Below, piece by piece: positions 1,862-42,232 of a stretch of DNA of 64,000 bases. How positions within the stretch are numbered: position 1 is the stretch's first letter; each line of letters begins with the position of its first letter. The notes under the pieces are model-generated. The model saw nothing but the letters and a program-made list of their open reading frames with translations, was not told the origin of the DNA and did not search any database. Where the stretch lies: assembly GCF_032362555.1 (NCBI RefSeq), contig NC_083524.1, positions 1,412,001-1,476,000 of the forward strand. Direction: 5' to 3'. This stretch comes from Amyelois transitella. Taxonomy: Eukaryota; Arthropoda; Insecta; Lepidoptera; Pyralidae. The position numbers were made by a program, and so were the translations under genes.

Positions 1862-2097
1862 ATGATTTACAAAATCATTTTTATGTTGTTTATTGTCACA
1901 TTCGTCGTAGGGTCAAAACATGACCAGTATAAAGGGTGAGTTATTATCCATTTATAATTAAATTTGATGACATAGTTAATTATTTCGAGAAGAGTTAGAT
2001 AGTTTTTAAATTATTATATTTCACACTTTTTTAATTAACACTTTTCGTATAACTCAAGAGTAAAATTAAATTAATTAACTTATTGATTTATAATTTA

Positions 2098-2292
2098 CTA
2101 GAGGCCGCCCGCGACTTCGTCTGCGTGGAATCATTCCTGCGGGAACTCCGGGATAAAAGCCTATATGTTATTCTGGGTCTTCAGTTACCTTCATACCAAA
2201 TTTCATCGTAATCGGTTTAGTAGTTTTTGCATGAAAGAGTAACAAACATCCATACTGACATCCAAACCTTCGCATTTATAATATTAGTAGGA
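2098..2292 (-). mobile_element. short Helitron-like (Lep1-type) element
   Basis: Reverse orientation. The 3' end is CGCGGGCGGCCTCTAG (complement of 2098-2113) and the 5' end is the TATAATATTAGTAGGA complement, starting TC. The body carries the familiar 'ATCGGTTTAGTAGTTTTTGC' block of non-autonomous lepidopteran Helitrons. Lies in CPL1 intron 1. Confidence 0.75.
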
Positions 2293-2359
2293 TTTGTCTC
2301 AAGCAATAAGTATTATGCGTGTGACATTAAGTTAATTCAAATCAATCTCAATTTCATCA

Positions 2360-2450
2360 TGAAGCCATATAGCTGAACGAGGACTTTCAGTTTTCTTAAG
2401 ACTTTTTCTACCCCGCAAGGGATATAAACATGACCTTTCCGTTATTTAAC
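2360..2450 (+). repeat. family A, 3' fragment
   Basis: Matches the tail half (AGCTGAACG... CCCCGCAAGGGATATA). Ends about 55 bp before the acceptor of CPL1 exon 2. Confidence 0.7.
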
Positions 2451-2743
2451 TATTTACTACGTCCACCCCGTAAATGAATCCTGACATATGTATGTGCAAT
2501 TACAGATACAAAGTATACACATTCAACTTAACATCAGCATATCAACGGGATAATTTTGATCATCTCAAAAGTGACGTCATTGATTACTGGATTTTGCCAA
2601 ATTTGGAGTTGAAGAGGGCCGGGAGAGTTATGGTGCCTGCCTCCCACCAATCCTGGTTCGAAGAGAACCTTCGGGAACTTGGTATGCCGGTGGAGGTGTT
2701 AATACAGGATGTATATGAGTAGGTCTTCCAAAATTCTCTCATC

Positions 2744-2893
2744 TCCCGAAACCGCCGAGCTTGCATGGAGAGAGTTATGAATGTGGATGAAGCGAAGGAA
2801 GTGTGCAGAGATCGTGGCAAGTGGATAAATGTAGTCTCTGCCTACCCCGCCGGGAAAGAGGCGTGATTTATGTATGTATTGTATTGTATTGTA
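2744..2893 (+). mobile_element. YADD-type LINE, 3' end fragment
   Basis: Matches the LINE C-terminus ([35 protein letters not shown]) and its 3' UTR (CCGGGAAAGAGGCGTGATTT), with a TATTG-repeat tail instead of TATG. It begins about 25 bp after the exon 2 donor of CPL1. Confidence 0.85.
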
Positions 2894-2894
2894 T

Positions 2895-3325
2895 TGATTT
2901 GTAGCGGGAGCGATGATTCGGCCAGACCGCCACCAAATGAAAGATCTTCCGCCAGGCTAGGTGTGATGCCTGGGGAACCGCGGCTCCGACGATATTGGGT
3001 GGGAAGTTGTATTTATGCTCCAATCCGTGAAATCTTAGTTTGCGCGATTTAGAAACTTCACTGCTATTGGCTGAGCGCTTCAATTTCTTCGCGATGATTG
3101 ACAAATTAATGGTGTGTGGCATTAGTGATGTCGCCACAGATTTAAAAAGCACCAAAGTGAGTTCGGTATATCTGAAGGACAATATATTAAATACTTTCAT
3201 AGATAGCTTTGGAAGCAGTTTGGAAGCGGTAGTAAGTAGTTATAATTAGATTTAAGTGATGTAACGTCAATAAGTGATACCTTGTAACCAATTTTGAAAA
3301 TAAATCTATTCTATTCTATTCTAAG
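2895..3325 (+). repeat. composite repeat ending in a LINE tail with (ATTCT)n
   Basis: Bases 3165-3325 (GCTTTGGAAGCAG ... AATAAATCTATTCTATTC) match a second copy at 23884-23985, so this is a LINE 3' end. The preceding 270 bp (GCGGGAGCGATGATTCGG onward) is moderately GC-rich. It contains a 69-codon open frame (3040-3249) that I cannot assign. Confidence 0.55.
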
Positions 3326-3539
3326 ATAAACACTCAAAATCTGGTCCAATCAGAAATAAAATGTCAGGGAAAAACAAGAAAATTTTGATAGGCAGAATAT
3401 GCTGATTTAGTAGCTTGTGCCAACTGTTTTTCTTTCCTTGCAAAATGTAACAGTCAATCAAGGGAAAGGAAAACAAATTTGGCATTCTTCATTAAGTCTG
3501 TCCTGTATGTGTCATTGTCATTAATATGACCTACACATA

Positions 3540-3650
3540 TGAACTTCAACACCATCATTAAGCCATACAGCTGAACGTGGCCTTTCAGCCTTTTCACGAC
3601 TGTTGGTTCTGTCCTCCCCGTGGGGGATACAGACGTGATGGATGTATAAT
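3540..3650 (+). repeat. family A, 3' fragment
   Basis: Matches the tail half and ends in GACGTGATGGATGTAT, only a few bases before the polypyrimidine/AG acceptor of CPL1 exon 3. The repeat may supply part of the intron's 3' end. Confidence 0.7.
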
Positions 3651-3897
3651 TTTCAGATACCTGATGAAGAAGGAGAATGAAGACAGCTTGCAGAGAAATC
3701 TTGAAAACCAGATGATACTATCGAGGCGATCGAGAGATCGAGTGTACAATTTGACACGTTACCTACGTTATAATGAGGTACCTATGGCTAATTCCCTTAG
3801 AATAAGCATTTTATGGACAGAAGTAAGACAAATCCTGATATTTAAGACATAAACAATTAACATGCGGACTTTTAGAGAAGAAGACTTCCAGGGGCTT

Positions 3898-4046
3898 CGA
3901 TTCCGTTGGAATTTTAGTAAAAAAAAATAACCCTATATGTTTACTCATATTTCATTAAAATCTATCCAGTAAGTTTTGCATGAAATAGTGACAAACACAC
4001 ATCCACACATCCTTAAAAACTTTCCCATTTATAATATTAGTAGAAT
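3898..4046 (-). mobile_element. Helitron-like fragment
   Basis: Contains the shared block AAGTTTTGCATGAAATAGTG and the terminal TATAATATTAGTAGAAT complement. The 3' CTAG end is not found. In CPL1 intron 3. Confidence 0.55.
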
Positions 4047-4704
4047 TATACAAGAAATTAGCTAAACTTCTTTTATATTACAGATTTTGGAATACGCCCT
4101 CGACTTACAAGAAGAATTTTTAACGTCACCAAACATATCTTTAGATGTAGTTGCATTCTCTCAAAATACATTCCAAAATAGAGAATTGTTCTATCTGAAA
4201 CTAACTTTCTTTTTTTTTTGGCGGCTGGCAACCCCGGAGCGTAATTGTCATATTCATTGCTCCGTATTTAAAATTTGTAAATTTAATTAAAATACACTAA
4301 AAATAAGTAAAAAATAAAATAAATTCATTGAATGCACATAGTGTAATTGTAATATTTAATTTTTAAGGTCAAATTCGGTGTATCTTGTGAAAAGATAGTG
4401 TTCAAAGTTGACGTTCTGTGGGTAACTGTTGCCGGTTTTATTTTACAACTTTTACAAGGTAAGAACTGTACAATAGTTACTTTTCCTCACGAATTTATAT
4501 CAATCACCGCGTCCTTGTGCACTGTTTTGCGTAATTTTTATTAAATATCTTACGAAATCACTTATTTCCTATACCGAATTTGACGTTTGTTTACTTTTGA
4601 ATTAGGTTAGGTTTTAGTACGGTAGTCGGTTTTGCTGGTATTATTTTACACACATCAAACTCTCATTGTCTTCCTTATACTTATAACATCTTATTTTGTA
4701 AAAT

Positions 4705-6306
4705 ATGTCGTCCTCAACCCGTGCTGTGACCGCTCGTCAGCTGGAAATGCAACTGAAGGAAGCCTTAGTTCAACTCAAGGCTGAGAAAAAGGACAATGAG
4801 CAATTATTACTGGAAAGGGAAGACAATGAACGTGAATATGAATTGATGCGAAATAAAAATCTAAAGCTCGAACAACATCTTGCTGAGAGTCTTAATAATT
4901 GTGATGACTTAACCGGGCAGCTTAACCGACTTAATTTAGTGGTAGATTCTTTCCGCCAATGCAGTGATACGTATGAGCAGACACTCAGACGTGTTACTGA
5001 ATTAGAAAGGGAGCTGAGTGAGGCATATGAGCTGATAAATAGACACGAGCAAGATGCCCAGTCGCATCAGTCAAAGGAGGTGTCCAGCCTCTTTGATGAG
5101 CTCATTGAAAGTAGACTTATGTCACCCTCAGTTGATTCCTCAATTATTGATCTCACTAGTGACACTTCTTATGATAATATGTATAAAAACAAACCAAAAC
5201 TTGATTTGAGCCATAATAAATTAAAAAAATACCTAAAACTCTCTAAAAAAATTAGGAAATGTAAATATCAATTAAAAAATAATAACATAAGGAAATCATG
5301 CTTAATAAAAAGCAGTTCATTGAACTGTAGGTTACAAAGGGAAATCAGCTCTTGCAATCAAAAAATGGTAGAAAATCAAGAGGCATATGAGGTTGATAGG
5401 ATCAGATTGGAGACTCATGTCATAAAATTACAGGATGACTATTCTAAACTGTTTAATAAATATGATAAACAAAGACAGCAAAATACTGAGCATCTGTTGG
5501 CTGTAGAAAAGTTGATTCATGACAGTACATTTAACCAGGAGACTCTTGAATTCTTATCAAAAGAATGTACCTGCGGGCAATTCAACAAGCCCATTATCAA
5601 TGATTCTACCTTGCTTTTACCCACTCCCAGTGCCGGTAATTTGCTTGATACTTATTCCAACTCTGAACCCTGTAAACCTCATTATAATTATAATACAGTG
5701 CTATTTTCAGACGGTATTGGTAGCAATATGGGTAAATATTTTTGTGATACCCTTAATCAGTCTTTTATAAATTACTGCATGCCAAATGCATCTTTTACCC
5801 AAATTATTGAGAGAATTAATAATGTAAATTTAAATAATAAATCCACCATAGTAATATTAATTGGTGATAGTTTTAAAATTGGCAGGAAAGATATAATTAA
5901 CTGTTTTGAATCATTGAATAAATTAAAAGTTAACCAAATAATTTTATGTGCTTTTCCATATATGAGTTGCCAGTCTCCAAAACTTAATAAAAACATTCAC
6001 CTACTCAATAATTTTATGCATTCGTTGACATGTCGTCACAGTGACAAATTTGCGTTTTTTGACACAAACAATTTCATAGGTGATTGTTTTAAGACCAATG
6101 ATAGAATATTTCTATCCAGATACCATAAGAACAAAATTGCTACATTGGTAGCTAGTAATATTAATGTTTGGACGAGTTTACATTGTAAGCGAAATATTAA
6201 TTATAAGTTGACTACAGAATTGCCAACTCTGTGTGATGGTAACTCTGTTGACTTGACAGTTAATTTAAACTGCACACTCAGACAACGGGAAACCCTCGAG
6301 GGTTAA
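4705..6306 (+). CDS. CR1-type LINE ORF1 protein (coiled coil + SGNH-like domain)
   Basis: 533 aa from ATG 4705. Residues ~8-130 are charged heptad-rich sequence (QLEMQLKEALVQLKAEKKDN) typical of a coiled coil. A second helical, lysine-rich part spans ~165-270. The C-terminal ~200 residues resemble the esterase/SGNH-hydrolase-like fold of CR1 ORF1 proteins, including LFSDGIGSNMGK and a later VILIGDSFKIGR. The usual N-terminal GDS block reads SDGIG, so enzymatic competence is doubtful. In the CR1 group ORF1 acts as an RNA-binding chaperone in the retrotransposition particle. No frame break is seen. Confidence 0.8.
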   Translation: MSSSTRAVTARQLEMQLKEALVQLKAEKKDNEQLLLEREDNEREYELMRNKNLKLEQHLAESLNNCDDLTGQLNRLNLVVDSFRQCSDTYEQTLRRVTELERELSEAYELINRHEQDAQSHQSKEVSSLFDELIESRLMSPSVDSSIIDLTSDTSYDNMYKNKPKLDLSHNKLKKYLKLSKKIRKCKYQLKNNNIRKSCLIKSSSLNCRLQREISSCNQKMVENQEAYEVDRIRLETHVIKLQDDYSKLFNKYDKQRQQNTEHLLAVEKLIHDSTFNQETLEFLSKECTCGQFNKPIINDSTLLLPTPSAGNLLDTYSNSEPCKPHYNYNTVLFSDGIGSNMGKYFCDTLNQSFINYCMPNASFTQIIERINNVNLNNKSTIVILIGDSFKIGRKDIINCFESLNKLKVNQIILCAFPYMSCQSPKLNKNIHLLNNFMHSLTCRHSDKFAFFDTNNFIGDCFKTNDRIFLSRYHKNKIATLVASNINVWTSLHCKRNINYKLTTELPTLCDGNSVDLTVNLNCTLRQRETLEG

Positions 6307-9155
6307 GAATTATCCATCAAAATATACAAGGTCTTCCCGGCAAAGAATTAGAAGTACAACTAGTTTTAGAAGAATTAAATGTGGACATTTTATGTTTGAC
6401 TGAGCATTGGCTCATGGAGGGGGAGATGATGTTCAGCCTAAACAATTATAATATTGTGAGCTGCTTAAACAGAAAGTCTGCAATTAGAGGTGGGTCTATG
6501 ATATTTATCAAATGCGGTCTTCGCTGTAAAGAGCGAACAGACATAACCAGACTTTCGGTTGAGCGGTGTGCCGAAGTGACCTGTGCCGAGCTAGATCATC
6601 ATATAATTGTTTGTGTGTACAGTCCCCCAAACAGTGAATTTAAACAATTTTTAAAAATAATGGATCAAGTGTTACATGTTACCTCAAAATGTAACAAAAA
6701 ATTAATTATTTGTGGTGATTTTAACATTGACATTTTAGTTAAATCAACTGTTAGTATACAATTTATTAATTTGTTTAAATCTTATAATTTAGAGTATGTT
6801 TTTTTCGAACCAACCCGAATAACATCTACATCTGCCAAGTGTCTGGATAATTTTTTTTGCAATAATCTTTTTATACGGAAATCAATTATTCACAAATTGC
6901 CCTCAGATCACACCGGTCAATATGTTACCTTTGAGAAAGAGTCCTTAAACAATTTAAATAATGATAAAATTATGTGTAGACCTCTTTCTTCCAAAAACAT
7001 AAGAAAATTTAAAATAAACATTGCAAATCAATTAAATACTTTAACATATTCTGGAAATAATCCTAATGAACATTATAACAATTTATTTAATATGATTTCT
7101 GCTGAATACTCAAAAAGGTTCAAGCAGAAACAAGTCAATATTCGTAATAGATTACAGTTCAGTGAATGGGCTACATTAGGTATTCACAAGAGTAGGAATA
7201 AGTTATATGACTTATATGCCCAGAAACAATACAATTTTGACCCCAGTTTTGTAGAATATGTCAAAAATTATTCAAAATTATTTAAAAAAGTTTGCAGGCA
7301 AGCCAAGTCTTTTCACATAAGTAGTAAAATAAACAATGCACCAAATAAAATTAAAGAAACATGGAACATTATTAATAAAGAATCTGGCAAAATCAAAGAT
7401 AGAGACAGTATTAAACAAATATCATCCGGTAACAAAAGTATTTCTAAAACTCAGGACATAGTAAATGCTTTTGATAATTTCTTTGCAAAAATCCCTGTGG
7501 AGCTAACTTCTGACGTTGACTCTTGTCCATTGCGCGCTGAAACCCTACTTAATAATAACACAACTCCCATCAAATCTGTCTTTAAATTTAAATATGTTAA
7601 CTCTGATAATATATTAAAGGCGTTCAAACAACTTAATTTGAAAAAGTCTGAAGACCATTGGGGTATGTCTGTTAGTATCATAAGTCAAATCATAGATATT
7701 ATTGCATCTGATCTAGCTTTTATATTTAATGAATGTATTGATGAGGGTATTTTTCCAAATTTAATGAAATGTAGCAAATTAATACCTCTATTCAAAAAAG
7801 GGGAGAAAACAGTCCTTGGCAATTATAGACCTATTTCTATATTGCCAGTTTTGAGCAAGGTGTTTGAGAAGATGATGCTTAATCAAATGCAACAATATTT
7901 TAAAATCAATAACATTTTCCATTCCCAACAATATGGGTTCACTGCCGGGAAGTCCACCACTGATGCGGGAGTAGCACTTGTTACTCAAATCTATGACGCG
8001 TGGGAGAGTTCACAGGATTCAGTTGGAGTCTTTTGCGATCTCTCTAAAGCATTTGATTGCGTAGATCATCAGACACTTTTGCGTAAACTTCGTCAATATG
8101 GGTTTGACCACAAATCAACTAAACTAATGGCATCCTATTTGACTGATAGGCTTCAAACTGTAGATATTAATGGAGTAAAGTCAAGCGGATCAAGCGTCTC
8201 AATGGGTGTTCCTCAGGGCTCAATTTTAGGACCATTCCTCTTCTTGGTATATGTCAATGACCTGCCTTTTATGGTGGAAAAACAGGCGGGTATAGTGCTG
8301 TTTGCCGATGACACTTCTTTAATATTTAAATTAGATCGCCATAGCGAAAATGTAAGTTCGGTTAATAATATACTGTCGGCCATATCTATCTGGTTCTCAA
8401 CCAACAATCTTCTTTTAAATGCTAATAAGACCCAATGCATTAAATTTACCCTTCCAAACGTAAGGCAGGCCAATACTGACATAATACTGGAAGGCCAGAA
8501 ATTAGAATTTGTTGAAAATACTAAGTTTTTAGGAATTATAATTGATGCAAAGCTACAGTGGGGTGCTCATATTTCTAAACTATCCAATAGACTTAGCTCT
8601 GCCGCTTATGCTGTTAGGAGGATCCGACAATTGACAGATGTAGCTACAGCTAGGCTTGTTTATTTCAGCTATTTTCATAGCTTGTTATCTTATGGTTTAC
8701 TTTTATGGGGTAGCGCGGCTGATATACAAACTATTTTTATAATTCAGAAAAGGGCCGTTCGCGCAATTTACGGCTTAGGACCAAGAGACTCGTTAAGACA
8801 ACTCTTTAAGAAAATAAACATACCTACAGTAGCGTCCCAGTACATTTTTGATCTTATAATGTATGTTAGGAAAAATACCTCTTTTTTTCAAAAAGTTAGT
8901 GCCACAACTGATAGAAATTTACGTAATAAACATAAATTAGTCATGCCGTTTCATAGGCTTAGCAAAGTCAATAAATCATTTATGGGGAACTGTATACGAT
9001 TTTATAATAGGTTGCCGGAGTCTGTTCTTGATATGCCCTACCGAAAATTCAAAGAGTATGTAAAGAAAGTACTTTGTGAGAAGGCTTATTATAGGACTGA
9101 TGATTACCTTAATGATAAAAACATCTGGCTCGAGCTTGGCACAGGAACCTCGTAA
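6264..9155 (+). CDS. CR1-type LINE ORF2: AP-endonuclease + reverse transcriptase
   Basis: The frame is open from 6264, overlapping the ORF1 end (6306) by 43 bp in the -1 frame. The first ATG (6381) lies inside the endonuclease: upstream in-frame residues IIHQNIQGL and ELNVDILCLTEHWL are conserved endonuclease sequence. Hence the true start is probably by -1 frameshift or stop-start coupling rather than at 6381. Endonuclease motifs: LTEHWL, CGDFNID, PSDHTG. Reverse transcriptase motifs: NYRPISILPVLSKVFEK, KAFDCVDH, GVPQGSILGPFLF, VLFADDTSLI (catalytic ADD), and FLGIIID. At least 924 aa and uninterrupted; this copy could be active. Confidence 0.9.
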   Translation, partial: FKLHTQTTGNPRGLRIIHQNIQGLPGKELEVQLVLEELNVDILCLTEHWLMEGEMMFSLNNYNIVSCLNRKSAIRGGSMIFIKCGLRCKERTDITRLSVERCAEVTCAELDHHIIVCVYSPPNSEFKQFLKIMDQVLHVTSKCNKKLIICGDFNIDILVKSTVSIQFINLFKSYNLEYVFFEPTRITSTSAKCLDNFFCNNLFIRKSIIHKLPSDHTGQYVTFEKESLNNLNNDKIMCRPLSSKNIRKFKINIANQLNTLTYSGNNPNEHYNNLFNMISAEYSKRFKQKQVNIRNRLQFSEWATLGIHKSRNKLYDLYAQKQYNFDPSFVEYVKNYSKLFKKVCRQAKSFHISSKINNAPNKIKETWNIINKESGKIKDRDSIKQISSGNKSISKTQDIVNAFDNFFAKIPVELTSDVDSCPLRAETLLNNNTTPIKSVFKFKYVNSDNILKAFKQLNLKKSEDHWGMSVSIISQIIDIIASDLAFIFNECIDEGIFPNLMKCSKLIPLFKKGEKTVLGNYRPISILPVLSKVFEKMMLNQMQQYFKINNIFHSQQYGFTAGKSTTDAGVALVTQIYDAWESSQDSVGVFCDLSKAFDCVDHQTLLRKLRQYGFDHKSTKLMASYLTDRLQTVDINGVKSSGSSVSMGVPQGSILGPFLFLVYVNDLPFMVEKQAGIVLFADDTSLIFKLDRHSENVSSVNNILSAISIWFSTNNLLLNANKTQCIKFTLPNVRQANTDIILEGQKLEFVENTKFLGIIIDAKLQWGAHISKLSNRLSSAAYAVRRIRQLTDVATARLVYFSYFHSLLSYGLLLWGSAADIQTIFIIQKRAVRAIYGLGPRDSLRQLFKKINIPTVASQYIFDLIMYVRKNTSFFQKVSATTDRNLRNKHKLVMPFHRLSKVNKSFMGNCIRFYNRLPESVLDMPYRKFKEYVKKVLCEKAYYRTDDYLNDKNIWLELGTGTS

Positions 9156-10699
9156 TTAATTGTAGTTTAATTTGAACTTAAATCAAAATTTCAGTACACT
9201 CTGTACATAAATCTTTTTAAAATTGGCAATCCATAAAATATATATATATATATATATTTTTTTTTCTTTTTTCAATATTAAATCTCATAAATATATAAAT
9301 CTCCCGTGAACAATGTATTCTCCCGTCCACATTATATTCTAAGTATAATTTAATATTGTGAAGTTGACGTTGTTAAAGAAAATGCTGCAGTGCAGTTTGT
9401 TACCGCTTCTTCTGCACTGACGCCTTGGAAGCGGCAGTAAACTTAGTTTTTAAGTAATATATTTGACGTCAACCAAGTTGTTAAACCATACGACAATTAT
9501 TAAGCGATATAATAATATCCTATAATAATGAATAAAAAATTTTGAATTTTGAATTTTTTGAATTTTTTAACATCTTCAAGTGCTGTGGCTGAACCCAAAC
9601 CAGTTATTGTGATAGAAGCGGCATCTGTAGCTAGAGAATGGATAACTGTTCCTTCAGCCATGTACATTGTTGATATGTTATTGGAAGATGAGCAGTATCA
9701 GCTTTTAGAAGAATTTGAGTGGATTGTAATACCAGTTTTGAATCCTGATGGATACGAGTTCAGTCATACAAATGTAAGAATGTGATTTCTAAATTCTGTA
9801 TAATGCAGTGACGGAATGCTAAATTTAGCTGTTGTTGTATCTTGCCTATGTTAATTTCTTAAAAACCAATAAACCTTTGAGACTTTAGAAAGGAAATAAG
9901 CTTGATTTCAGTAAATATACAAGATTTAGCGTGTAATCACAATTACAAATAGTCATTCAGTAACAAATACATTCTGTAGTTTCGTTGAGCACCTCCAGTA
10001 ATTCGTATAATATTGTACTTTAAAAATTATCAGTGAATGCTTGTTATTTCATGTTCATTTCGTTAACCTAACTTTACATTTGGAACCATATGTAACACTT
10101 TACCATAACTTACAAAGATGTTATTGTCAATTTGCAGACTCGACTTTGGATCAAATCACGACGCACAAATTTACTGCCCCTCGTTTGTGTCGGTGTGAAC
10201 ATTAATCGTAACTTCGACATTGATTTTGGTAATTTCGACTCGAGCACCAATTACTGCAGTGACACCTACGATGGAGGATCCCCATTCTCCGAGCCAGAAA
10301 GCCAATTCGTCCAATCAATTGTTGAAGAATATCGCGACAGGATAAAGTTGTACATCTCTTTGCAAAACAAAGGTGGATTGATCACGTATCCATGGAGCTA
10401 TGAACGGGCTGCATCAGCGTTATTCAAACAACATCATATGTTGGCTTTATCTATGATAAGTGTTATGAATGGAAATTATACAGTGGGTGTGTCATCTGTA
10501 GCTATTGAAAGAGCTTCGGGTACAAGCAGCGATTATGTTAGGAGAAACGGAGTAAGATATACGTTTAATTTAGATATAGGAAGCGTTGATAACAATGTCG
10601 TGATACCGGTTCAAGAAATACCGACGATTGTTGAAGACGTTTGGTGGGCGGTCTCGACTGCGGCGAGGGAAATTGTTTATTAAATTGTTGTGAATATTT

Positions 10700-10870
10700 A
10701 TTTGTTTATTTAAAACTTTATTGCACAAAACACAAATGTACAAAAGGCGGACTTAATGCCGTTTGGCATTCTCTACCAGTCAACCAGCTGACCAAACAGA
10801 AATAATTTTAAGTTGGTGGTGCGATAAAGTGCACATGCATACTGAAAAATACATACAAGATACATAATAT
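10700..10870 (-). repeat. dispersed LINE-tail-like repeat
   Basis: Nearly the same sequence (CAAAAGGCGGACTTAATGCC, GTTTGGCATTCTCTACCAG, GTGCGATAAAGTGCACATG) recurs at 63365-63550. Read in reverse, it has an AATAAAGTTTTAAATAAA end like a LINE 3' UTR. It begins about 17 bp after the CPL1 stop codon. Confidence 0.65.
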
Positions 10871-11450
10871 ACATAAAATATCAAATTATTTAATAAACTG
10901 AGTCTACCATGGTCCAGTGAACTCGCAACTATATATTGAAGTACATCACTGAGAGAACAATCCTCGGGAATAGAATACTTACCGCTGAACACCTCTCCTT
11001 GTACCTCGTCTGCGCAACCACGCAAGAAGAAGAATAGAATATCGATATTTTGTTACTGAAACAGTTTTATTTCATCCAGTTGGTAAATTTTTGTTGTTTT
11101 TGTGAGTCGGAGGACGAAAAAATTATCAATGAACTACAGTTTTTATTATATTCTTGTCTGATTAATTTTGTAGGGTTGAATGCTGAAAAGGCTTCATCAG
11201 AATATTTCCATGCCAAAAATTTTATTTTTGTCTTATATAACACGTAAAGTATTGTAGCTGGCTTTCAATATCTGAATAAACTAATCGGCCCCCACCAATA
11301 GTATCTTTTTAATGTAATTGTTTTGAAAAACAAATATATCTTTGACAAATAATATCCTAATCGGCATTTTTAATTATTTACATATACTTAGGTTTAATTA
11401 AAGATATTAAGATAAAATTTATTCGAGTTATCAATCATTCATTTGTCGTT
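10871..11450. other. intergenic, nothing recognised
   Basis: AT-rich spacer between CPL1 and CPL2. The only landmarks are an AATAAA at about 10892 that could serve CPL1, and open frames with no family signal. Confidence 0.4.
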
Positions 11451-11497
11451 GACTTGATAATTTATTCAGTCATTTGCATCAGTGTAGCCCCAAAAAA
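11451..11497 (+). promoter_or_regulatory. probable CPL2 promoter / 5' UTR
   Basis: TCAGT initiator-like motifs at 11466 and 11479. CTTGATAATTTATT, a GATA-type site, sits about 28 bp upstream of the second one in place of a canonical TATA. The ATG at 11498 would then be ~17 bp from the start site. Confidence 0.35.
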
Positions 11498-14400
11498 ATG
11501 TTGTTCAAATTGTTTATATTTTTCTTTTTGAGTTCCCAAACGTTAGCCAAAAATGAATTATATTCAGGGTGAGTATTTCATCTCTTATATTTTTTCTTAG
11601 TTATTATCTCGCAAAGCTTAGTGTTATTTCCATAAAATTTGAATCATGCAAATCCTTTTTTGCTGTTGTGGAAAGTAATTTTATTTATATTTTCACGATT
11701 TTTTATCAACAGGAAGACATGAGCCAATTCAGAGACAAGAATTTATTTTGTATTTTTAGTATATTCATTTAATGTTGAGCTGGTACGGGCACATTATGAG
11801 AAGTGAAGAAGGTCATGTTACTTAAAGGGCCTTAAATATGGAGGTCGAAGGTTGTCGATAAAGGGGAAGACCGAAAAAGAGATGGATGGACAGTGAAAGG
11901 AAAGTATGGGCAGAAAGGGAGTGACCAGTGAGATGGCAATGACAGAAGTAATTAGGAAAAACTGTTCCGACGTTACATCAAGAGTTGGAAAAGATATACA
12001 CAAAGAAGAGTATATTTATCAAATAACAAAAGTAAATACAAATTAAATTGCTTCCAGATACAAGGTGTACAATATAAAATTTGGAACAGAAGAACAAGAA
12101 AATAATTTTAAGTTATTGAAACGAGATGGCTTAGATTTCTGGAGATACCCATCTTGGGAACGGAATGTCATTGGTCGTGTTATGGTAGCCACATCGCACG
12201 TGGAATGGTTTGAAAGAAAACTAAGAGATATGAATATTGATGTAAATGTCCATATTGAAGATGTTTTAGAGTAAGTATTAAAACTGTTTCATTACATTAA
12301 GACTATTGCTTTTTTTTGAGGTTAATTTTTTTTGCCGTGTAGTTCCCGGCACCAATACAAAAAGAATAGGACCACTCTATCTCTTTCCCATGGATGTCGT
12401 AAAAGGCGACTAAGGGAAAGGCTTACAAACTTTGGATTCTTTTTTAGGCGATGGGCTAGCAACCTGTCACCACTTGAATCTCAATTCTATCATTAAGCTA
12501 AATAGCCGAACGTGGCCATTCAGTTTTTTCAAGACTGTTGGCTCGGTCTAACCCGCAAGGGATATAGACGTGACCATATGTATGTATGTATGTTAATTTT
12601 TTTATACGTACATACATTAAATCACACGTTAGTAACAGAACCAATAGTCTTGAAAAGACAGATATGCCACGTTCAGCTGTTTGGCTTAATGATAGAATTG
12701 TGATTCATAATAGTGACAGGTTGCTAGCCCGTCGCCTAAAAGAAGAATTCCAAGTTTATAAGCCATTAGTCGCCTCCGACATCCATGGGAAAGAGATGAA
12801 GTAGTCCTATTATTTTTTCTAATAGTGCTGGGAACCACACGTCACTGCCGGGATCCACACGGTACAGAGACAAGATCTAGTAACAATAGTTTTATTGACA
12901 ATCGTTTTTGTACAACGAGGGTTAACATTGTGATAAAATTTTCATTTGAAACAAATATAAAATTTTTTGGTAGGACATGGTAGGTTGCGGCGGTCAGTTG
13001 GATGTCGTTTCGTGAAAAAACCTGACTAAACCACTCCATAATCTTGGATACTGGAAAATACCAGTCCTTGGTAGGCTTCTACTTAAGCCAGGCATAAAAT
13101 GTAAATCTTTATTAAGATTTCATCTGTCACTATTTGAATCTCGATTCCATCATAAAGCTATACAGCTGAACGTGGCCTATCAGTCCTTTCAAGAGTGTTG
13201 GCTCTGTCTGACCCGCAAGGAATATAGACGTGACTTTATGTATGTATGTATGTATTGATCGAGTAAATCTCACACTAACCCTTTTGGACTACTACGACCA
13301 AAGAATGCATTACAGAAAAAAAATCTGGAAGTAATACAAATAGTTCTTAATATCTTTTAGATACCTTTCAGAAAAAGATGGAACAATCGAAGTTGTCGAG
13401 AGAAACAGAGCGTTTGATTTTGACAATTTTTATCGATACGATGAGGTACGATATAAATATAAATATATATACGGGACAAATTACACAGATTGAGTTAGCC
13501 TCGAAGTAAGTTCGAGACTTGTGTTACGTGATACTAACTCAACGATACTATATTTTATAATAAATACTTATATAGATAAACATCCAAGACCCAGGCCAAT
13601 CAGAGAAAGTTCTTTTCTCATCGTGCCCTGGCCGGGATTCGAACCCGGGACCTCCGGTGCCACAGACAAGCGTACTACCGCTGCTTTTGCTTTTAGTATG
13701 ACATATTCTTATTTTTGTTTGTTCTTTGCTTTATTCTTTGTGCCTGTTATCGGCATCTTTCAACTTAATAAATGTTTAGTATACCCTGAATATTATACAC
13801 GGGGCTGCTGTCTAGTTTTAAGAACCTTTATCTTTTAGTTCTCATGTTAGTGGATTTATTGTAATCTTTTATGAGAATAAATTCTTTAAACCTAAACTAA
13901 GACACGATGGAATACTATGTACATCATAATAAAAAAGATAAAAAAAATTCCCGACCGTAACAGCATTCTGTACTTTGGATCATATTATTTTTCCATAATT
14001 AGTTGAAGTCCGTCTTTTTTAAAAACAAATATACAGAGTGTCTGATAAATCGCGTTTCGTATTACATACATACTTACAATCACGTCTATATCCCTTGCGG
14101 GGTAGACTGAGCCAGCCTTGAAAAGATTGATAGGCCGCGTGCAGCTGTTTGGCTTAATGATAGAATTGAGATTCATATAAAGAGACAGGTTGCTAGGCCG
14201 TCGCCTAAAAGAAGTACCTCAAATTTATAAGCCTATCTCTTAGTCGCCTTTTACAACACCTATGGGAAAGAGATGGAGTGGTCCTATTCTTTTTGCTATT
14301 GGTGCCGGGATCCACACGGCGACAATAGGAAAAAAATTGTCAGAATGTTATTCATTTTGATATCACGACCCTGTCATTCAAAATATCGTACGATTTAATA

Positions 14401-16772
14401 AAGGATTTAACCATGCATTTATCAGTGATAAATATTAGATTAATTTTCGGTAAAAAATATTGAAATAAGCCTAAAAAATAATGAATTTTTGAAATCATGT
14501 CATTGACAAACAATATAATACCTATGTTGATAATATTGATTAAGCTCTGCACGCTCAATCATTTCACGTTATAGATATTAAAATGGTTTAGCAAATTTCA
14601 AAATAATATTAGCAAATCTATACATATAATAAAACAGTCAAAATATTTTGTCTATACATTTAGTATTTTTGACTGAAATGGATAGAGGCACTTAGAATGA
14701 ATAATAGAAAGCAAATATTTTTTTTTGTCTGTCTGTATGTATCATCACGTTTATCTCCGAAAGTATTGAACCGATTTACTTAAAACTTTTACCAATTGCT
14801 TTGTTTTAATTTAGAAAAACATTTAATGTTTGTTTCATCAAAATCGGTTCACTTAAAAAAAAGTTATCGTCATTTGAATGAACTCAAGGCATGAGTTTGC
14901 CTGCAAATAATTTTACACGGAAAAATTCAAAATTTACGCGGACGAAGTCGCGTCGCTAGTTTTAATATAAATCCTTAATCCAATTCATTATTAATTGATC
15001 ACGTACGTGGGTTCTCCTTAGAATTTGTTTCATAAAAATATAACTTGGTAATTTTATTTTGCAGATCCTAAATCATTTACAAGAGTTGGAGTCGAAATAT
15101 ATGAATTCTGATAACGCCACATCAGTAGAAATAGTTGATTTTGGCACTACCAACCAAAATAGAAGGCTGGTATATTTAAAAATAGAGAGAAGAGAACAAG
15201 ATATATCTAAACCAGTTATTATAATTGAGGCTGGCATCAATCCAAGAGAATGGATAACAGTGCCATCTGCAATAAATGTGATTGAAAACATTTTAAATGA
15301 AGATCAACCAAGGTTTTTGAATGATTTTGATTGGATTGTTATACCAGTTTTAAATCCTGATGGTTATGAATATACACACACAAATGTAAGTGATATACGA
15401 GTACATACATACATATGGTCACGTCTATATCCCTTGCGGGGTAGACAGAGCCAACAGTCTTGAAAAGACTGAATGGCCATGTTCAGCTGTTTGGCTTAAT
15501 GATAGAATTGAGATTGAAATAGTGACAGGTTGCTAGCCCATCGCCTAAAAAAATCCCAAGTTTGTAAGCCTATCCCTTAGTCGCCTTTTACGTCATCCAT
15601 GGGAATCCTATTCTTTTTTGTATTGGTGCCGGGTAACACACGGCGGAAAAAATTATATACGAGTAATTAGGTAATTTCTCCTACTGTCACTTGGATATAA
15701 ATATCAGTAATCTATTGAAGAAGATAGTTTTATTTATCACGGATATAGTGTCAGTAAATCAGTTAATCTTATTACATAGCACATTGATCCATTTCAGCGT
15801 GATAATGATAAGCGACTTAAACCATTGTGTAGATGTTTAATCAATAATGGGTGTGTCTTTGTCGTGATAAGTTCTGAACTTGCTGAAACATTTTACGCTT
15901 TTTAACTTACAAAAATAAGCCTGTTATTCAATGATATTTCTGCATGACCTAAATATATACTTGTTTGATTAACTATAATGTGTTTTGTGCAAAAAAAGAA
16001 ACAATAAATAATAATTGACTAGTTTTCATTCATGCAAAATACATTCCACCTATAAGAGATTTATATATTATCATAAGAGGATCTCTCGGATAGAAATAAA
16101 TTACTTATAGTATCAATGACTGGTGTCTTTATTTCTTTAAGGATAAGCATCCTTATGTATCCGAATATCTATATCGGAAAAAACATGTTATTTCTGCTAA
16201 CTCAATATCAAATTTTTCAGTTACGTCTCTGGGAGAAATCAAGAAGTACAAACAGCAACTTAGGGGTAATTTGCCCTGGAGTGAACATTAACAGGAATTT
16301 CGATATTGACTGGGGTACTTCTGCGTCCAGCTCAAGTCCTTGTAGCAATATTTATAGTGGCACTGGTCCTTTCTCGGAAATCGAAAGCCAAATGATAGCA
16401 GCTCTAATTGAAGAACACGGTGCAAGAATAAGACTTTATATATCACTGCAAAATAATGGTGGATTTATATCTTACCCGTGGTATTATGAAAAAGCAGCGA
16501 CAGCGATGTTTAGAGATAATCATTTGCTTGGTATAGAAATGGTTGATGCTATGGTTAGTAATTATACTCTGGGTGTGGCTTCGGTTGTTGCTGATAGAAT
16601 TTCAGGTACAAGCAGTGATTTTGCTCGAATAAGAGGAGTGAGGAATACATTCAATATAGATATAGAACATAGTGAAGATGGAAATGTAGTGATATCTACA
16701 AGCGATATAAAGAGAATTGTGGATGATGTTTGGGCAGCTATTAGAGTTGCCGCTGAAAATGTTACAGACTGA
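11498..16772 (+). CDS. CPL2: M14 carboxypeptidase-like protein with lost catalytic residues
   Basis: Exons: 11498-11568, 12058-12270, 13361-13445, 15065-15385, 16221-16772 (TGA). Phases match throughout; product 413 aa. Signal peptide MLFKLFIFFFLSSQTLA, then an M14 propeptide, then the peptidase domain. Key residues (bovine CPA numbering): zinc His69 is Asn (GINPREW), His196 is Gln (SLQNNGG), Tyr248 is Asp (ADRISG), Glu270 is Asn (TFNIDI). Arg71, Glu72, Arg127 (WEKSRS), Asn144 and Arg145 (NINRNFD) are kept. So it should not bind zinc or cleave, yet retains the carboxylate-binding side. AATAAA at 16783-16788 follows the stop. Codons are A/T-ending, unlike CP3/CP4. The exon 3 linker is shorter than in CPL1 (29 versus 41 codons). 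Alternative: a decaying gene, though the intact frame and splice sites argue against that. Confidence 0.9.
11773..12005 (+). mobile_element. LINE reverse transcriptase C-terminal relic
   Basis: Reads MLSWYGHIMRSEEGHV, then frameshifts, then RGRPKKRWMDSERKVWAER. This is the conserved C-terminal 'WYGHIMR ... GRPKKRW' pattern of many insect LINEs, different from the LINE at 48292. In CPL2 intron 1. Confidence 0.65.
12333..12592 (+). repeat. family A SINE-like repeat, full length
   Basis: Head GCCGTGTAGTTCCCGGCACC, middle GGCGATGGGCTAGCAACCTG, tail GACGTGACCATATGTATGTATG. In CPL2 intron 2. Confidence 0.85.
12628..12862 (-). repeat. family A copy with partly duplicated head
   Basis: Reverse copy. 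The head end reads twice: GGGAACCACACGTCAC and then GGGATCCACACGGTA. Confidence 0.75.
12930..13080 (+). repeat. SINE B body fragment
   Basis: Contains GGTCAGTTGGATGTCGTTTCGTG and AAAACCTGACTAAACCACTC, the body shared with the tRNA-headed SINE at 33846-34155. No tRNA head here. Confidence 0.5.
13118..13258 (+). repeat. family A, 3' half
   Basis: Starts in CTGTCACTATTTGAATCTC and ends in TATGTATGTATGTATT. About 100 bp upstream of CPL2 exon 3. Confidence 0.75.
13465..13685 (-). repeat. tRNA-derived SINE, near full length
   Basis: Read on the - strand: a tRNA-like head with box A (AGCGGTAGTACGC) and box B (GGGTTCGAATCCCGG), then a body ending AACTCAATCTGTGTAATTTG. It lies ~20 bp after the CPL2 exon 3 donor. 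It is a SINE rather than a tRNA gene, as the same head and body recur at 47587, 62155 and 63643. Confidence 0.85.
13848..13905 (+). repeat. possible LINE 3' tail
   Basis: TTATTGTAATCTTTTATGAG followed by AATAAATTC resembles insect LINE 3' ends. Weak; 13690-14058 otherwise holds nothing recognised. Confidence 0.3.
14060..14323 (-). repeat. family A SINE-like repeat, full length
   Basis: ACATACATACTTACAATCAC tail complement through to GGGATCCACACGGC. Confidence 0.85.
14617..14959 (+). mobile_element. Helitron-like non-autonomous element
   Basis: 5' TCTATACATATAATAAAAC, GTCTGTCTGTATGT block, and 3' GCGGACGAAGTCGCGTCGCTAG followed by T. About 343 bp, in CPL2 intron 3. Confidence 0.8.
15395..15648 (-). 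repeat. family A SINE-like repeat, full length
   Basis: Begins about 10-15 bp after the CPL2 exon 4 donor (15386), from the CATACATACATATGGTCACG tail complement to ACACACGGC. Confidence 0.85.
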
Positions 16773-24096: not shown

Positions 24097-27000
24097 TTAC
24101 AGGTTACGTCTCCTCCAGTTATCCCTGGCGTATCTAGCTCCAACTTTGATACCTTCCCAGGTCTCCATTCCGGCTTGTTCAATGAAATCATCGTTCACCA
24201 AGAAACCATTCAAAGTTTGTCCACTACCAGTTCTACCAGGCAGTTCAAAAGTGTACGAATAAGGGATTCCCATTCCCAAAGCATAGTCACCCGCACTGCC
24301 AGACGCAGCGTACAAAACCATGAAGGTATTACCCACAATGTAGTTAGGATTAGCGGGTACTTTAACAGCATCGATGGCTTGAGCAATGTTGACTCCAGCT
24401 ACATGAATGCTGAGGGAATTGGCGGGGAATTGGCCGTTTCCATAACCGTACAAGACCATGCTTCCAAAGCTGTGGATGTCAAGGAAGAGTTCGATACGAT
24501 TGCCATATTCGTTGATGATATCTCTGATGGCAGCAGTTTCGGGTTCGGAGAAGGGCGCTCGGCCGTGGAAGGTTTCAGTGCAAGCGTTGTTGCTGGATGC
24601 AGTGGACCAGAAGATGTCGAAGTTACGGTTGAGGTCAACGCCCATGCAGAGGTCTCCTGTCATGTAGCCAGTGGCGCGGTTCTTTCTCCAGAAACGAGCC
24701 TGTAATTTTTTTTATGATCTTTTAATCTATGATTTTGAAATGCTCATAAGATGTAGGTTGAAGTTAACATAAATTCCTAAAATTGAGCGTCTTATCCGAA
24801 ATGGTACGCAGAGACTTTATCTTAACACTTGCTATCCGTACTAATATTATAAATGCGAAAGTCTGTCTGTCTGTCTGTCTGTCTGTCTGTTCCTCTTTCA
24901 CGGCCGAACCACTGAACCGATTTTGATGAAATTTGGTATGTATATAGTTTAAGACCCGCGTTCAAACATAGGCTATTTTTTTTTTCAAAAATCGACCCCC
25001 TAAATTTTCAAATGGGGGGTTGAAAGTTTGTATGAAAATCATCGTTCCGCTTTCACGCCTGACCCGCTGATCCGATTTTGATGAAATTTGGTATGTATAT
25101 AGTTTAAAACACGCGTTCAAACATAGGCTATTTTTTTTTTTTTCAAAAATTGACCCCCAAAATAGTCAAATGGGGGGTTGAAAGTTTGTATGAAAATCAT
25201 CGTTCCGCTTTCACGCCTGACCCGCTGAACCGATTTTGATGAAATTTGGTATGTATATAGTTTAAGATCCGCGTTCAAACATAGGCTACGTTTTTTTTCA
25301 AAATTCGACCCCCAAAATAGTCAAATGGGGGGGTGAAAGTTTGTATGAAAATCATCGTTCTTCTTTCACGCCTGAACCGCTCAACCGATTTTGATGAAAT
25401 TTGAAATGCATATAGATTGAGATACGAGTTCAAACATAGGCTACTTTTTTTTCAAAAAACAACCCCCAAAACAGTTAAAGGGGGGGGGGGGGGTGAATCA
25501 TCGTTCCGATTTTACGGCCTAACCGCTAGGCCGATTTTGATGAAATTTGGTATGTATACAGTTTTAGTATTTTTATTTTAACGTCAACAGAAATTTATAA
25601 TCTGTGAAAATGTCACCTGTCTAGCTAATACGGATCATGAGACACGCCTGGTGACAGGAGGATGGGTGAGCGGACAGACGAACTAACAGACAGACGGACA
25701 CCGAAGTCGAGTAATAGGGTCCCATTTTTACCCTTAAGGTACGACGGAACCCTAATAAGTGTTAATTTTTGATATGCAAAAGATTAGAAAATTTATTCCT
25801 TCAATGAATAATTTGTTTGATAATGTAGCAATAGATGGCGTCACCATGTAATGTAAAAGTCGCTATCGTTTGTCGTTCGACAATCAATAAGACTTCTATG
25901 ATTTTGAAAGCATTTTTACCCTCAGTTAATAAGTTGTTGGTCGTTTCGTATTCATGCTTGAAGACGTTTCGTTGTGTTTTGTTCATTTGTATTTAAAATA
26001 TATTGGTTAGTAAAAAATACGTGTCAGTTGCGGAAAGCGGGATGGCACTAAATAGGATGGGACAGGATAGGAGGACTGGATGGAGCCGGACGGGACACAA
26101 CAGGTTGTGACGGGACGGAACAGAACGAGAAGAGACGGGAGAAGCCATATGAATTTAAATCAAATATAAACTTAAAACAGTCCCGCACGATACGGGATTA
26201 AAACATGGGTGAAATTTTATGTCGTATCCTTATAATCTAAAATACATTTGCGCGGGCGAAGCCGCGGGCAAAAGCTAGTTGATAATAAAGTAAATGAAAT
26301 GTATATAAGAAGCTCTAAAATAATCATTTCAGTCTCTTTTTGGGTTAATTTAGACTCTAATAATGAATCGACATTTCAATAAAATAACTAACATATACCC
26401 GCATCTCCGCCTGCTTAAACAACAGATTCCGTTAATTACCAATCCTGCTCAAAATTGGGAGATCCTCTCTTATTATTCGCCTAAGGAATTTCAAATTTTG
26501 CTAATTTTGTGTGTTTGATTTTTGTAAGTTTACTGACGACACTTACACTACGATGAGTCCAAACATATCCATCAGGATTGGCAATGGGCAGGATGATCCA
26601 GTCGATATCTTGAAGCAAGTCCTGCTCCTGTACATCAATCACCAACTTCTCAATGGCGTAGAGGGTAGCTGGTAAGGTGACCCATTCGCGAGCATGCAGC
26701 AGAGATTGCATGTATACGATGGGTTTTGAAGAAGTCTGGAAGATAAATTTGATAACTTTAGATAGACAATTATTCAATCTAACTTTGATGTTGAATGGCA
26801 TCAGGAAGCATAATCAGCATCAAGATTTTTAAAATACTGCATTGAGTCAGACGATAATAAGCTTGAATGTGCAAATAACATATCGAAAAAGTTGATAAAT
26901 GTAATTATGCAATCTGGATTTGTAAACTTTCAAGGATTGGACATGGCATTTCCAATTTTTGTATTACCAAAAAGTACTGCATAGAGCAATTCTTCTTACC

Positions 27001-30000
27001 TGGAAGTTTGTGGAGGAAATCTTCAGGTACCTGATGTCTCTGCCTTCGAAACTTTTGCCCGCATTCACCACAGTCACGATGTCGGGGTAACGTTCACTCA
27101 AGTCCGTCAAATATTGATCTACCTGAAATCATTGGGTATGTTTAAAGTAATTTGTTTACATTATTGTGATCGTTGTATGATTACTATATGCCCAGTAAAA
27201 TTACATGTAATATTTAGCAAAGATTTATAGTGGAGTGCTGGTATTTTGTGTTATGGTGCCTCATTGTTTTAGTCTGAAACTGCTATGCAAAGGTCAATAG
27301 GCTTTTGTATAATTCGACGATATGATTGATCGACCTCGAGCGTTCAGCGGCCCGGACTTTTATTTTGGAATCGTTTGTGGACAGAAAGTTGACGTTATTG
27401 AAGAAAATGCTGCAGTGCAGTTTGTTACCGCTTTTTCTGGATTGACGCTACGGAAGTGGCAGTAAACTTAATTTTGGGTAATTTATTTCACGTCAATCAA
27501 TGTTGTGAAACCAAAAGATAATAATATGAAAATTATTAAGTAATGTTGAAATATCCCAATGAATAAAAATTTTGAATTTGAATATATACTTTTGTGTCGA
27601 AAAATCGTCCAAATATGAAAATTTCTGTCTCCTAATCTACCGATGAAGAAAAATTATGTCGTTCAATTGTTCGTACGCTGATCGTCCGTGGTGTCTGTGG
27701 TATTACCTAAAAGACCTAATAGAACTGTAAGGAATATTTCAAATAGTATTACTTACAACATCATACTCGTGGATGGTGTCAAAGGAAAGACCGCCATCAG
27801 ATTTCGTGCTGCGTCCTCTCGCCGCGGACAATATTTCTTCTTCGCGCAGAATATCTCTAGAAATTGTCAAATATTAATATATTAACAGTGGATTGCTCCT
27901 TTCACAGACAATATTAGTACTCTATTTAGGGCACAATTGATTTATTATGCCACCGTATTTAAATGAGAGGTACACGATTTGATCACTAATCAACAAATGA
28001 TGGTTATTGATGGCATCCCAATAGGCATTGATGTTAAATGTTCAGACAAATGCAGATGTTTCTGTTCTGTTATTTTTACGTTGCATCTGTTGTTTTTTTT
28101 GTCTCAAGTTTTGTTGTTTTTACATTTGATTAATTATTATAAGTGACAAATATGAAGTAACTATTTAGAGTTTAATTGACATAGGTAATAATATCATCAT
28201 TTTATTAAGAGTAAAATAATTTGACTTAACTTACTAATTGTAACTTACGTGTAAATTTATTATATTTGTTAAATATGTTTTATGCTACACTTTTAATAAA
28301 CCCTTATCAAAAGCAAATAAAGATTCTATTCTATTACGATTGTTTATTCCTAAAAAGTAATTTCAGAAAGTACTTCGTAGTATACCTCATAGTACGAAAC
28401 TTTCTTTAAAACTAGCATGTACAACAACATTGCCAAAAAAAGTTGAAAATTCAACTCACTCCCTGATATTGTCAGACAGGATTTTGAACTCAATGCCTGC
28501 GGAAGTGAGGGCTTCCTGGAACAGTTCCTTCATCTCTTTGTTCACCAGCACCTGTCCAGGTCTGTTGGGGAAGGCCCGGGACCACACGTCTACGAAGTGT
28601 GACTCCATTTCGCTTAGGATCTTCGCCTGCTGCATGTTCTGTACCGATACCTCGTAGAGGGCTGAGCTGGGGAGGTAAAATATCTTTTACACCTGACTCA
28701 TAAACTAACTTTAAATTAAATGAATATATAAGTGTTCAGGCGCTGGACTTGCAAATTGTCACTGATAGGCCAACATTAAGCTTTTTGGCTAGATGACAGA
28801 ATTGAGATTCAAATAGTGACAGGTTGCTAGTCCATCGCTTAAAAGACGAATCCCAAGTATATAAGCCTATCCCTTAGTCGCCTTTTACGACATCCTCGGG
28901 AAAGAGATGAAGTGGTAATAATCTTTTTTTTATTGGTGCCACACGGCACTAAAGTAATAACTCTACAATATATTGCTTTTTTACAATAATTTGAGTGTGT
29001 TTGACCTCAATATGCCTGACAGTAAACAGGATGAGGCCTACGGTGATTTTTGTTATAAAAACATACATACATAAATATCATCACGTCTATATCCCTTGCG
29101 GGATAGACGGAGCCAACAGTTATATACTAAGCATAAAATCATATGCGTGCGACGCCGCGAGCGGAAACTAGTATTCTATCATGTTATAAATTCTGTCATA
29201 AAATATTATCTTTATATCTTAAGCTTCCATAAGCCAAATTAATTAAATTAATATCGTGTAATTAATTAAAATGAGTGGTGAGGGCAAATGTTACACTTTA
29301 ATGAGTCGAATTTTGTGACTTGATTTTGTAATATCACACGTTTCTTCGTAGAGCGCTGATGGACGAAGGGTTATTGTACCCTACTCGTAAATCAACGGTT
29401 CACGGTTCAATTCCCAAGCAAATATTAGAGAGTTAGGTTAAAGTTAGCTTAGTAACGTTAGTTTGAATTTTCTGGTGTTACAGTGAGTGAATATGTCGTG
29501 TGGAAACGTGCATAATTAAGCGATAGACATAAAAATGGTCTAATTTGGTCAGGTTCTCATGTTGATAGGGTTATGGAGGTCAGATGTTGTTTACTTTTAC
29601 CTTTCCAGAATCGTGGTCATGGTCTTTTTTCGAATGATGCAATTTGAACATAATCCATATATCTAGTGGATTATACATCATTGATCGTAACGGGGTAGAC
29701 AGAGGTTCACGTTATCTATCACAACTCAATATCAATGACGTTTGCATACACGTTACTGGTAACAAATTTTCTTTATCTTTTCTGTATTTTTCTAATTTGA
29801 AGTTTATACCGCCGTGCCGTGTGATTCCCGGCACCAATACAAAAACAAGATTATTACCACTTCATCTCTTTTCCATGGATGTCGTAAAAGGCGACTAAGA
29901 AACTTGAAATTAATTATAATAGGCGTTGGGTTAGCAACCTGTCACTATTTAAATCTCAATTCTATCATTAAGCGAAACAGCTGAACGGGGCCTAGCAGTG

Positions 30001-42198: not shown

Positions 42199-42232
<34 letters not shown>

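Follow-up and report, generated by a model that had tools for sequence, protein, structure and literature searches.

Members of the M14 metallopeptidase family that have lost catalytic residues are known from vertebrates and fungi (PMC11266112, PMC7706225). Five such pseudopeptidases have been tabulated together, all of which keep H69 and have R145 changed (PMC11266112), and in a Basidiomycota clade that is sister to fungal Ecm14, about half of the sequences combine R127Y, H196R and E270H with a retained N144 (PMC7706225). In vertebrates, 6 of 76 duplicated CPO genes and one of 51 other duplicated CPA/B genes are predicted pseudoenzymes; the same study defines a pseudopeptidase by substitution of the residues required for activity and retention of other conserved residues, classing proteins with multiple conserved residues substituted as pseudogenes (PMC9925722). 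For insects, a silkworm survey counted 25 M14 genes, and the word 'inactive' is absent from its main text (PMC5000601). In text searches of one open-licence library, outside which most subscription papers lie, we found, judging by titles, the beginnings of abstracts and selected passages, no description of a zinc-less digestive-type M14 protein in moths. Here, we analysed a 64-kb stretch of contig NC_083524.1 of the moth Amyelois transitella (the window), which holds four genes of the M14 A/B type: CP3, CP4 and two carboxypeptidase-like (CPL) genes, CPL1 and CPL2. The latter are tandem procarboxypeptidase-like genes on the + strand, predicted to be secreted, and an initial annotation had correctly recognized them as a pair at 1862..16772. 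We consider it probable that both are real pseudoenzymes that have been under constraint in the past.

Among solved structures, CPL2 is closest to 2C1C (5.5e-54) and 1JQG (1.4e-54), which are carboxypeptidase B (CPB) of Helicoverpa zea, in which Glu255 is named, and procarboxypeptidase A of H. armigera, respectively (species according to PMC8605224). CPL1 and CPL2 were aligned with six active rows (CP3, CP4, 2C1C and three other active-type paralogues from the same genome), and the final residue and cleft counts were taken from the spliced window sequences; in three other rows, the ends of the exons were masked. Residue numbers are those that we take to be the bovine ones, anchored on Glu255 of the H. 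zea enzyme. In this alignment, the CPL1 site reads V69 R71 E72 R124 I127 N144 R145 Q196 N197 K198 E248 S255 D270, and that of CPL2 reads N69 R71 E72 R124 E127 N144 R145 Q196 N197 N198 D248 S255 D270. From the zinc-ligand set of active enzymes (H69, E72, H196), both histidines are gone, H69 having become Val or Asn and H196 Gln, and only E72 is retained in both copies; Tyr248 is replaced by Glu in CPL1 and Asp in CPL2. These losses agree with the initial annotation, as does the active-type site that it assigned to CP3 and CP4, where all eight catalytic and binding residues (H69, E72, R127, N144, R145, H196, Y248 and E270) are present. It had also given Glu270 as changed to Asn; both CPLs, however, have Asp there, aligned without a local gap and confirmed when CPL2 was aligned with 2C1C in HMMER, and an Asn would require a gap at this place, where both HMMER and MAFFT put none. 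Likewise, of the four residues described as kept, R71, N144 and R145 stand, but position 127 holds Ile in CPL1 and Glu in CPL2. What was read as Arg127 is an Arg common to both copies that sits three residues downstream; it is presumably Arg130 in bovine numbering, in agreement with Glu255 as named for H. zea CPB. Lacking H69 and H196, the CPL domains should hold no catalytic zinc, and, lacking R127 and Y248 and carrying Asp in place of E270, they should not hydrolyse peptides.

Several features unite the two copies to the exclusion of the active enzymes. In a tree of 21 rows, which leaves out two partial rows (C11b and C11c) under a 150-column limit, CPL1 and CPL2 form one clade (support 100/99) on a stem branch of 0.96; the same tree groups CP4 with 2C1C (96/94) and gives the CPL clade no resolved place among the active genes. 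At nine of the 29 cleft positions, both CPLs carry the same residue, found in none of the six active rows (N142, I143, Q196, N197, G200, R249, S255, N268 and D270), and the codons for Q196 (CAA) and D270 (GAT) are identical. Each CPL also differs from CP3 and CP4 by an insertion at one place, five residues long in CPL2 and four in CPL1, which holds an N-glycosylation sequon, as well as by a 7-residue gap beside a second aligned sequon. Altogether, there are four sequons in CPL1 and three in CPL2, two of them aligned between the copies, and none in CP3 or CP4. The shared new residues, indels, sequons and codons therefore point to an ancestor that was very probably already without a working site, and Q196, N197, D270, N268 and N142, together with the indels and the two sequons, support the earlier proposal that the zinc site was lost in the common ancestor. 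Most likely, catalysis was lost before the duplication, and a long period of constraint ensued.

Over 409 aligned codons, the CPLs share 48.7% amino acid identity, with a Nei–Gojobori (NG86) nonsynonymous distance (dN) of 0.437 and a saturated synonymous distance (dS) of 3.78; 43 of the 67 shared four-fold sites differ. From the lower bootstrap bound of the four-fold proportion (0.52), which corresponds to a silent distance of ~0.97, hand arithmetic gives a dN/dS (omega) of at most ~0.45. A codon model rejected an omega of 1 with a value of 201 for twice the log-likelihood difference (2dlnL), and an omega of 0.3 with a value of 61; its free fit ran to saturation, with an omega of 0.01, and the maximum-likelihood dS values from Biopython (7.7 to 19), being saturated, were not used. 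Because of this saturation, to which a difference in base composition between CPL1 and CPL2 adds (GC content at third codon positions, GC3, of 0.407 and 0.276, respectively), the point estimate of omega is worthless, but its direction stands: CPL1 and CPL2 diverged under purifying selection, with an omega well below 1. An omega near 1, which the initial annotation had named as a mark of simple gene decay, is thus not seen for this pair, the only one compared. When neutral substitution was simulated, 2 of 200 runs remained without a stop codon at 0.1 changes per site, and none of 200 did so at each of 0.25, 0.5 and 0.75. The CPL2 frame runs without an internal stop from a hydrophobic N-terminus, all its junctions are GT/AG, and it matches Propep_M14 (PF02244, 5.7e-9) and Peptidase_M14 (PF00246, 2.8e-55) in Pfam; its signal peptide, propeptide, splice sites and frame are intact, as first described. 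The junctions listed for CPL1 are GT/AG as well.

The two CPLs are identical at 20 of 29 cleft positions versus 131 of 261 positions elsewhere (one-sided p 0.041), and residues common to both and absent from the active rows make up 9 of 28 positions in the cleft versus 33 of 240 elsewhere (p 0.023), both tests being small and uncorrected. Compared with the six active rows, each CPL matches only 6–11 of 27–29 cleft positions, pairs of active rows matching each other at 17–24 of 26–29; across the alignment, 58 columns are invariant in the active rows, of which each CPL keeps 35 and changes 23. Such counts suggest that the cleft may have been rebuilt and then conserved, and would not be a frozen ancestral clamp. 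A turn of the cleft to a net anionic charge was considered and dropped, since the charges at the 29 positions, counted by hand, came to ~+3 for CPL1 and ~+1 for CPL2.

The initial annotation had described an intact clamp for the substrate carboxylate, through which a pseudoenzyme could still specifically bind the C-termini of peptides or inhibitors and act as a peptide sink or inhibitor decoy. The residues that bind the carboxyl group are R127, N144 and R145, E270 serving in acid-base catalysis (PMC9925722), and the counterparts of Y248 and R145, by our own matching of residue numbers, are named as the substrate carboxylate anchor (PMC8605224). Both copies hold N144, R145, R71 and R124, and R145, encoded by CGT in CPL1 and AGG in CPL2, was retained through silent change, the reverse of the five tabulated pseudopeptidases with R145 changed and H69 kept (PMC11266112). 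However, an intact clamp is not supported: of the carboxyl-binding trio, only N144 and R145 remain, residue 248 is acidic, L203 has become Thr or Ser, T268 has become Asn, and G207 of the S1′ pocket is Ser in CPL1 and Tyr in CPL2. Considering that Ser207 is also present in active human and porcine CPB (PMC8605224), only Tyr207 of CPL2 argues against an open pocket. Moreover, R145 is also present at a further four loci in the genome, all apparently without H69 and all lacking N144, so that its presence is no sure sign of peptide binding. As support for the idea that peptide C-termini are still bound, these residues are weak, and a remodelled pocket would fit them better; although binding through the old clamp is compatible with a zinc-less ancestral pseudo-procarboxypeptidase, the first part of the explanation that we favour, we think it unlikely. 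Another alternative, that the site still binds metal through altered ligands (N69, E72, Q196 and D270 in CPL2) and serves some hydrolytic or cation-dependent function, seems to us barely credible: E72 and an acidic residue 270 occur in both CPLs, and CPL2 offers oxygen ligands at all four positions, but residue 69 is Val in CPL1, and R127 and Y248 are gone from both. We know of no M14 enzyme with the ligand set N69/E72/Q196/D270, no search for one having been made.

The history of the pair can also be read in other ways. Had both copies diverged as active enzymes and lost the zinc site later, each separately, unlike residues at positions 69 (V/N), 127 (I/E), 198 (K/N) and 248 (E/D) would be in keeping with it, yet the nine cleft residues that the copies have in common, their like codons at 196 and 270, the related indels and the aligned sequons make this scenario very unlikely. 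The pair might, on the other hand, be dispensable and on its way out, with CPL1 already dead and CPL2 drifting, as the low GC3 of CPL2, the long stem branch and the structure of CPL1 could indicate, since exon 4 of the latter is split by a non-LTR (long terminal repeat) retrotransposon of the LINE (long interspersed nuclear element) type. When a 1501-base piece of its second open reading frame (ORF2) was searched genome-wide, there were 465 first-look candidates, and the best 40 scored comprised the piece itself and 39 other places, all of which match it over the full length at 99–100% identity. The LINE family is therefore young and the CPL1 insertion recent; judged by these copies, the family is currently or recently active, and the insertion may be polymorphic. 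As for a target-site duplication, no string of at least six bases was shared between the flanks, except T runs and T-run-plus-G strings. The CPL1 exons flanking the LINE are still open, with neither a stop nor a frameshift, and, the insertion being recent, the CPL1 frame was open until lately. Together with the absence of any stop or frameshift across the 413 codons of CPL2, the GT/AG junctions of both genes and an omega far below 1, this makes decay improbable as the explanation, even though the pseudoenzyme, C-terminus-binding and decay readings are not fully exclusive of one another.

According to the pseudoenzyme reading that we prefer, the ancestor of CPL1 and CPL2 would already have been a pseudo-procarboxypeptidase within the M14 A/B family, secreted and zinc-less, before it underwent tandem duplication. 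Purifying selection would have kept the signal peptide, propeptide, disulfide cysteines and core, while the cleft, rebuilt relative to the active enzymes (N142, I143, Q196-N197, G200, R249 beside E/D248, S255, N268 and D270), would have been held similar thereafter, and N-glycosylation sequons would have been gained. Most likely, the proteins would function in non-catalytic binding, for which either the glycosylated surface or the remodelled cleft would serve, and the ligand would be something other than just a peptide C-terminus. With a young LINE now interrupting CPL1, CPL2 is the remaining intact copy. Several points weigh against this reading. The CPL1 frame is interrupted in the present assembly, and, because positions 69, 127, 198 and 248 differ between the copies, part of the loss may postdate the duplication. 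As silent sites are saturated, omega is only bounded, and the GC3 of CPL2, lower than the window GC of 0.368, suggests that selection on codons is weak and that expression may be low. The 29 cleft positions were of our own choosing, partly by the presumed bovine numbering, and the columns invariant in active enzymes are kept in both CPLs no more often in the cleft (6 of 16) than elsewhere (26 of 42), the difference not being significant (p 0.14). Structure prediction for a half-domain yielded no usable fold (predicted local distance difference test score, pLDDT, of 37), and the evidence for constraint comes from the sequences of one gene pair in one genome.

Beyond the window, we searched the genome assembly (327 Mb in 33 contigs) with the mature part of CPL2, exon by exon and for the best candidates only, which returned 35 matches; leaving aside the two CPLs, the listed matches of at least 60 residues all have 44% identity or less, and therefore no third CPL copy was seen. 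An NCBIfam profile scan gave no match, and a scan of viral contigs with CPL2 exon 5 as the query found no relative. Residues were surveyed, one exon at a time, at 22 loci, of which 4 lie in the window and 18 elsewhere, with approximate joins that make some residues at the joints unreliable; other C16 matches, the C3, C5 and C8 matches and the partial matches L018, L019, L028 and L029 were left out. Among the 21 loci covering position 69, six are without His (CPL1, CPL2, C17f, C18b, C18c and C11c), as are five of the 21 covering position 196 (the same without C18c). Three to four further M14 loci thus seem to lack zinc histidines, C18c being the least sure. In the four apparently H69-less loci outside the window, N144 is replaced by V, S, D and D. 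At L016, L021, L024 and L022, one or both zinc histidines are apparently gone, with different substitutions in each, and four more loci, all on C16, carry H69, H196, R127, N144, R145, Y248 and E270. Zinc-site loss, a known kind of change in M14, therefore seems recurrent in this genome in an insect digestive-type setting. It is conceivable, if rather doubtful, that digestive-type carboxypeptidases of the moth lineage repeatedly became secreted non-catalytic binders, the CPL pair being the best-preserved case seen here.

If this were so, the CPLs would have had their zinc removed, the S1′ pocket rebuilt and glycosylation gained, with the new pocket then conserved for some ligand. Genome surveys that equate M14 domains with carboxypeptidases, such as the silkworm count (PMC5000601), may include such non-enzymes, and the LINE-interrupted CPL1 could offer a natural test of the protein's role.

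Table 1. Features of the CPL region, of the active-type genes in the same window and, in the last four rows, of loci elsewhere in the genome
Feature	Position	Strand	Description
CPL1	1862-10683	+	5 exons, exon 4 split by LINE
CPL1 exon 1	1862..1935	+	signal peptide
CPL1 exon 2	2506..2718	+	propeptide
CPL1 exon 3	3657..3777	+	propeptide/activation segment
CPL1 exon 4, part 5′ of LINE	4084..4206	+	inner boundary approximate
LINE (non-LTR retrotransposon), within CPL1 exon 4	4207..9566	+	~5.4 kb; boundaries approximate
LINE ORF1	4705..6306	+	533 aa, open; no Pfam match at E 0.01
LINE ORF2	6381..9155	+	endonuclease and reverse transcriptase; 924 aa open as mechanically listed
CPL1 exon 4, part 3′ of LINE	9567..9773	+	inner boundary approximate; V69 R71 E72
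CPL1 exon 5	10138..10683	+	R124 I127 N144 R145 Q196 N197 K198 S207 E248 S255 D270
CPL2	11498-16772	+	5 exons, 413 codons
CPL2 exon 1	11498..11568	+	signal peptide
CPL2 exon 2	12058..12270	+	propeptide
CPL2 exon 3	13361..13445	+	activation segment
CPL2 exon 4	15065..15385	+	N69 R71 E72
CPL2 exon 5	16221..16772	+	R124 E127 N144 R145 Q196 N197 N198 Y207 D248 S255 D270
CP3	24097..30148	-	active-type procarboxypeptidase, 430 codons, no internal stops
CP3 exons	30078-30148, 28460-28666, 27757-27856, 27000-27122, 26547-26735, 24097-24699	-	
CP4	38670..45469	+	active-type procarboxypeptidase B-like, 430 codons, no internal stops
CP4 exons	38670-38734, 39342-39551, 43123-43225, 43689-44000, 44867-45469	+	
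Apparently zinc-His-less M14 locus	L016:4132-6490		matched stretch open, gene model incomplete
Apparently zinc-His-less M14 locus	L021:1060-2315	-	matched stretch open, gene model incomplete
Apparently zinc-His-less M14 locus	L024:978-2291	-	matched stretch open, gene model incomplete
Apparently zinc-His-less M14 locus	L022:5753-6751	-	matched stretch open, gene model incomplete

In CP3 and CP4, exon junctions are GT/AG wherever inspected, and the H69-bearing exon of CP3 (26547-27122, - strand) has an additional intron that is found in none of CPL1, CPL2 and CP4. The window also contains, on the - strand, two open frames at 21692-22817 that we take to resemble a Tc1-type transposase, no family search having been made, a 361-aa open frame at 48292-49377 that presumably resembles part of a reverse transcriptase, and, at 59105-60869, a 382-aa open frame, in our assumption of the mariner transposase type, whose start is repeated by an adjoining 123-aa frame.

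Compared with described systems, the CPLs share their disulfide cysteines and core with 2C1C and 1JQG, and with the latter also the pro-plus-mature layout, but differ from both in the absence of H69, H196, R127, Y248 and E270 and in the presence of sequons. AEBP1/ACLP, CPXM1, CPXM2 and domain III of CPD are likewise M14 domains with substituted catalytic residues, CPXM2 even having the Q196 of the CPLs; these proteins, however, are discoidin-bearing or multi-domain, lie outside the A/B digestive group and, in all four cases, keep H69 and have R145 changed (PMC11266112). In contrast, the CPLs are of the A/B type and have a propeptide, the Pfam scan of CPL2 gave only its two M14 domains and no discoidin domain, and, with H69 lost and R145 kept, they invert the pattern of the five tabulated pseudopeptidases (PMC11266112). 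Fungal Ecm14 is, like the CPLs, of the A/B type with a propeptide and predicted to be inactive (PMC7706225; PMC11266112), yet it keeps H69, E72 and H196 and carries N144D, R145H and E270K; its Basidiomycota sister clade offers the precedent most like the CPL pattern, although H196 is the only zinc ligand named there as lost (PMC7706225). By the rule that treats proteins with multiple substituted conserved residues as pseudogenes (PMC9925722), the CPLs, given their 23 changed columns of 58, might be labelled pseudogenes too. The serine protease homologues of insects are, as the CPLs would be, non-catalytic protease relatives in moths, but they belong to another peptidase class, and the likeness is one of analogy only (PMC4676143); if digestive-type carboxypeptidases did repeatedly become secreted non-catalytic binders, which is rather doubtful, such proteins would be their metallopeptidase counterpart.

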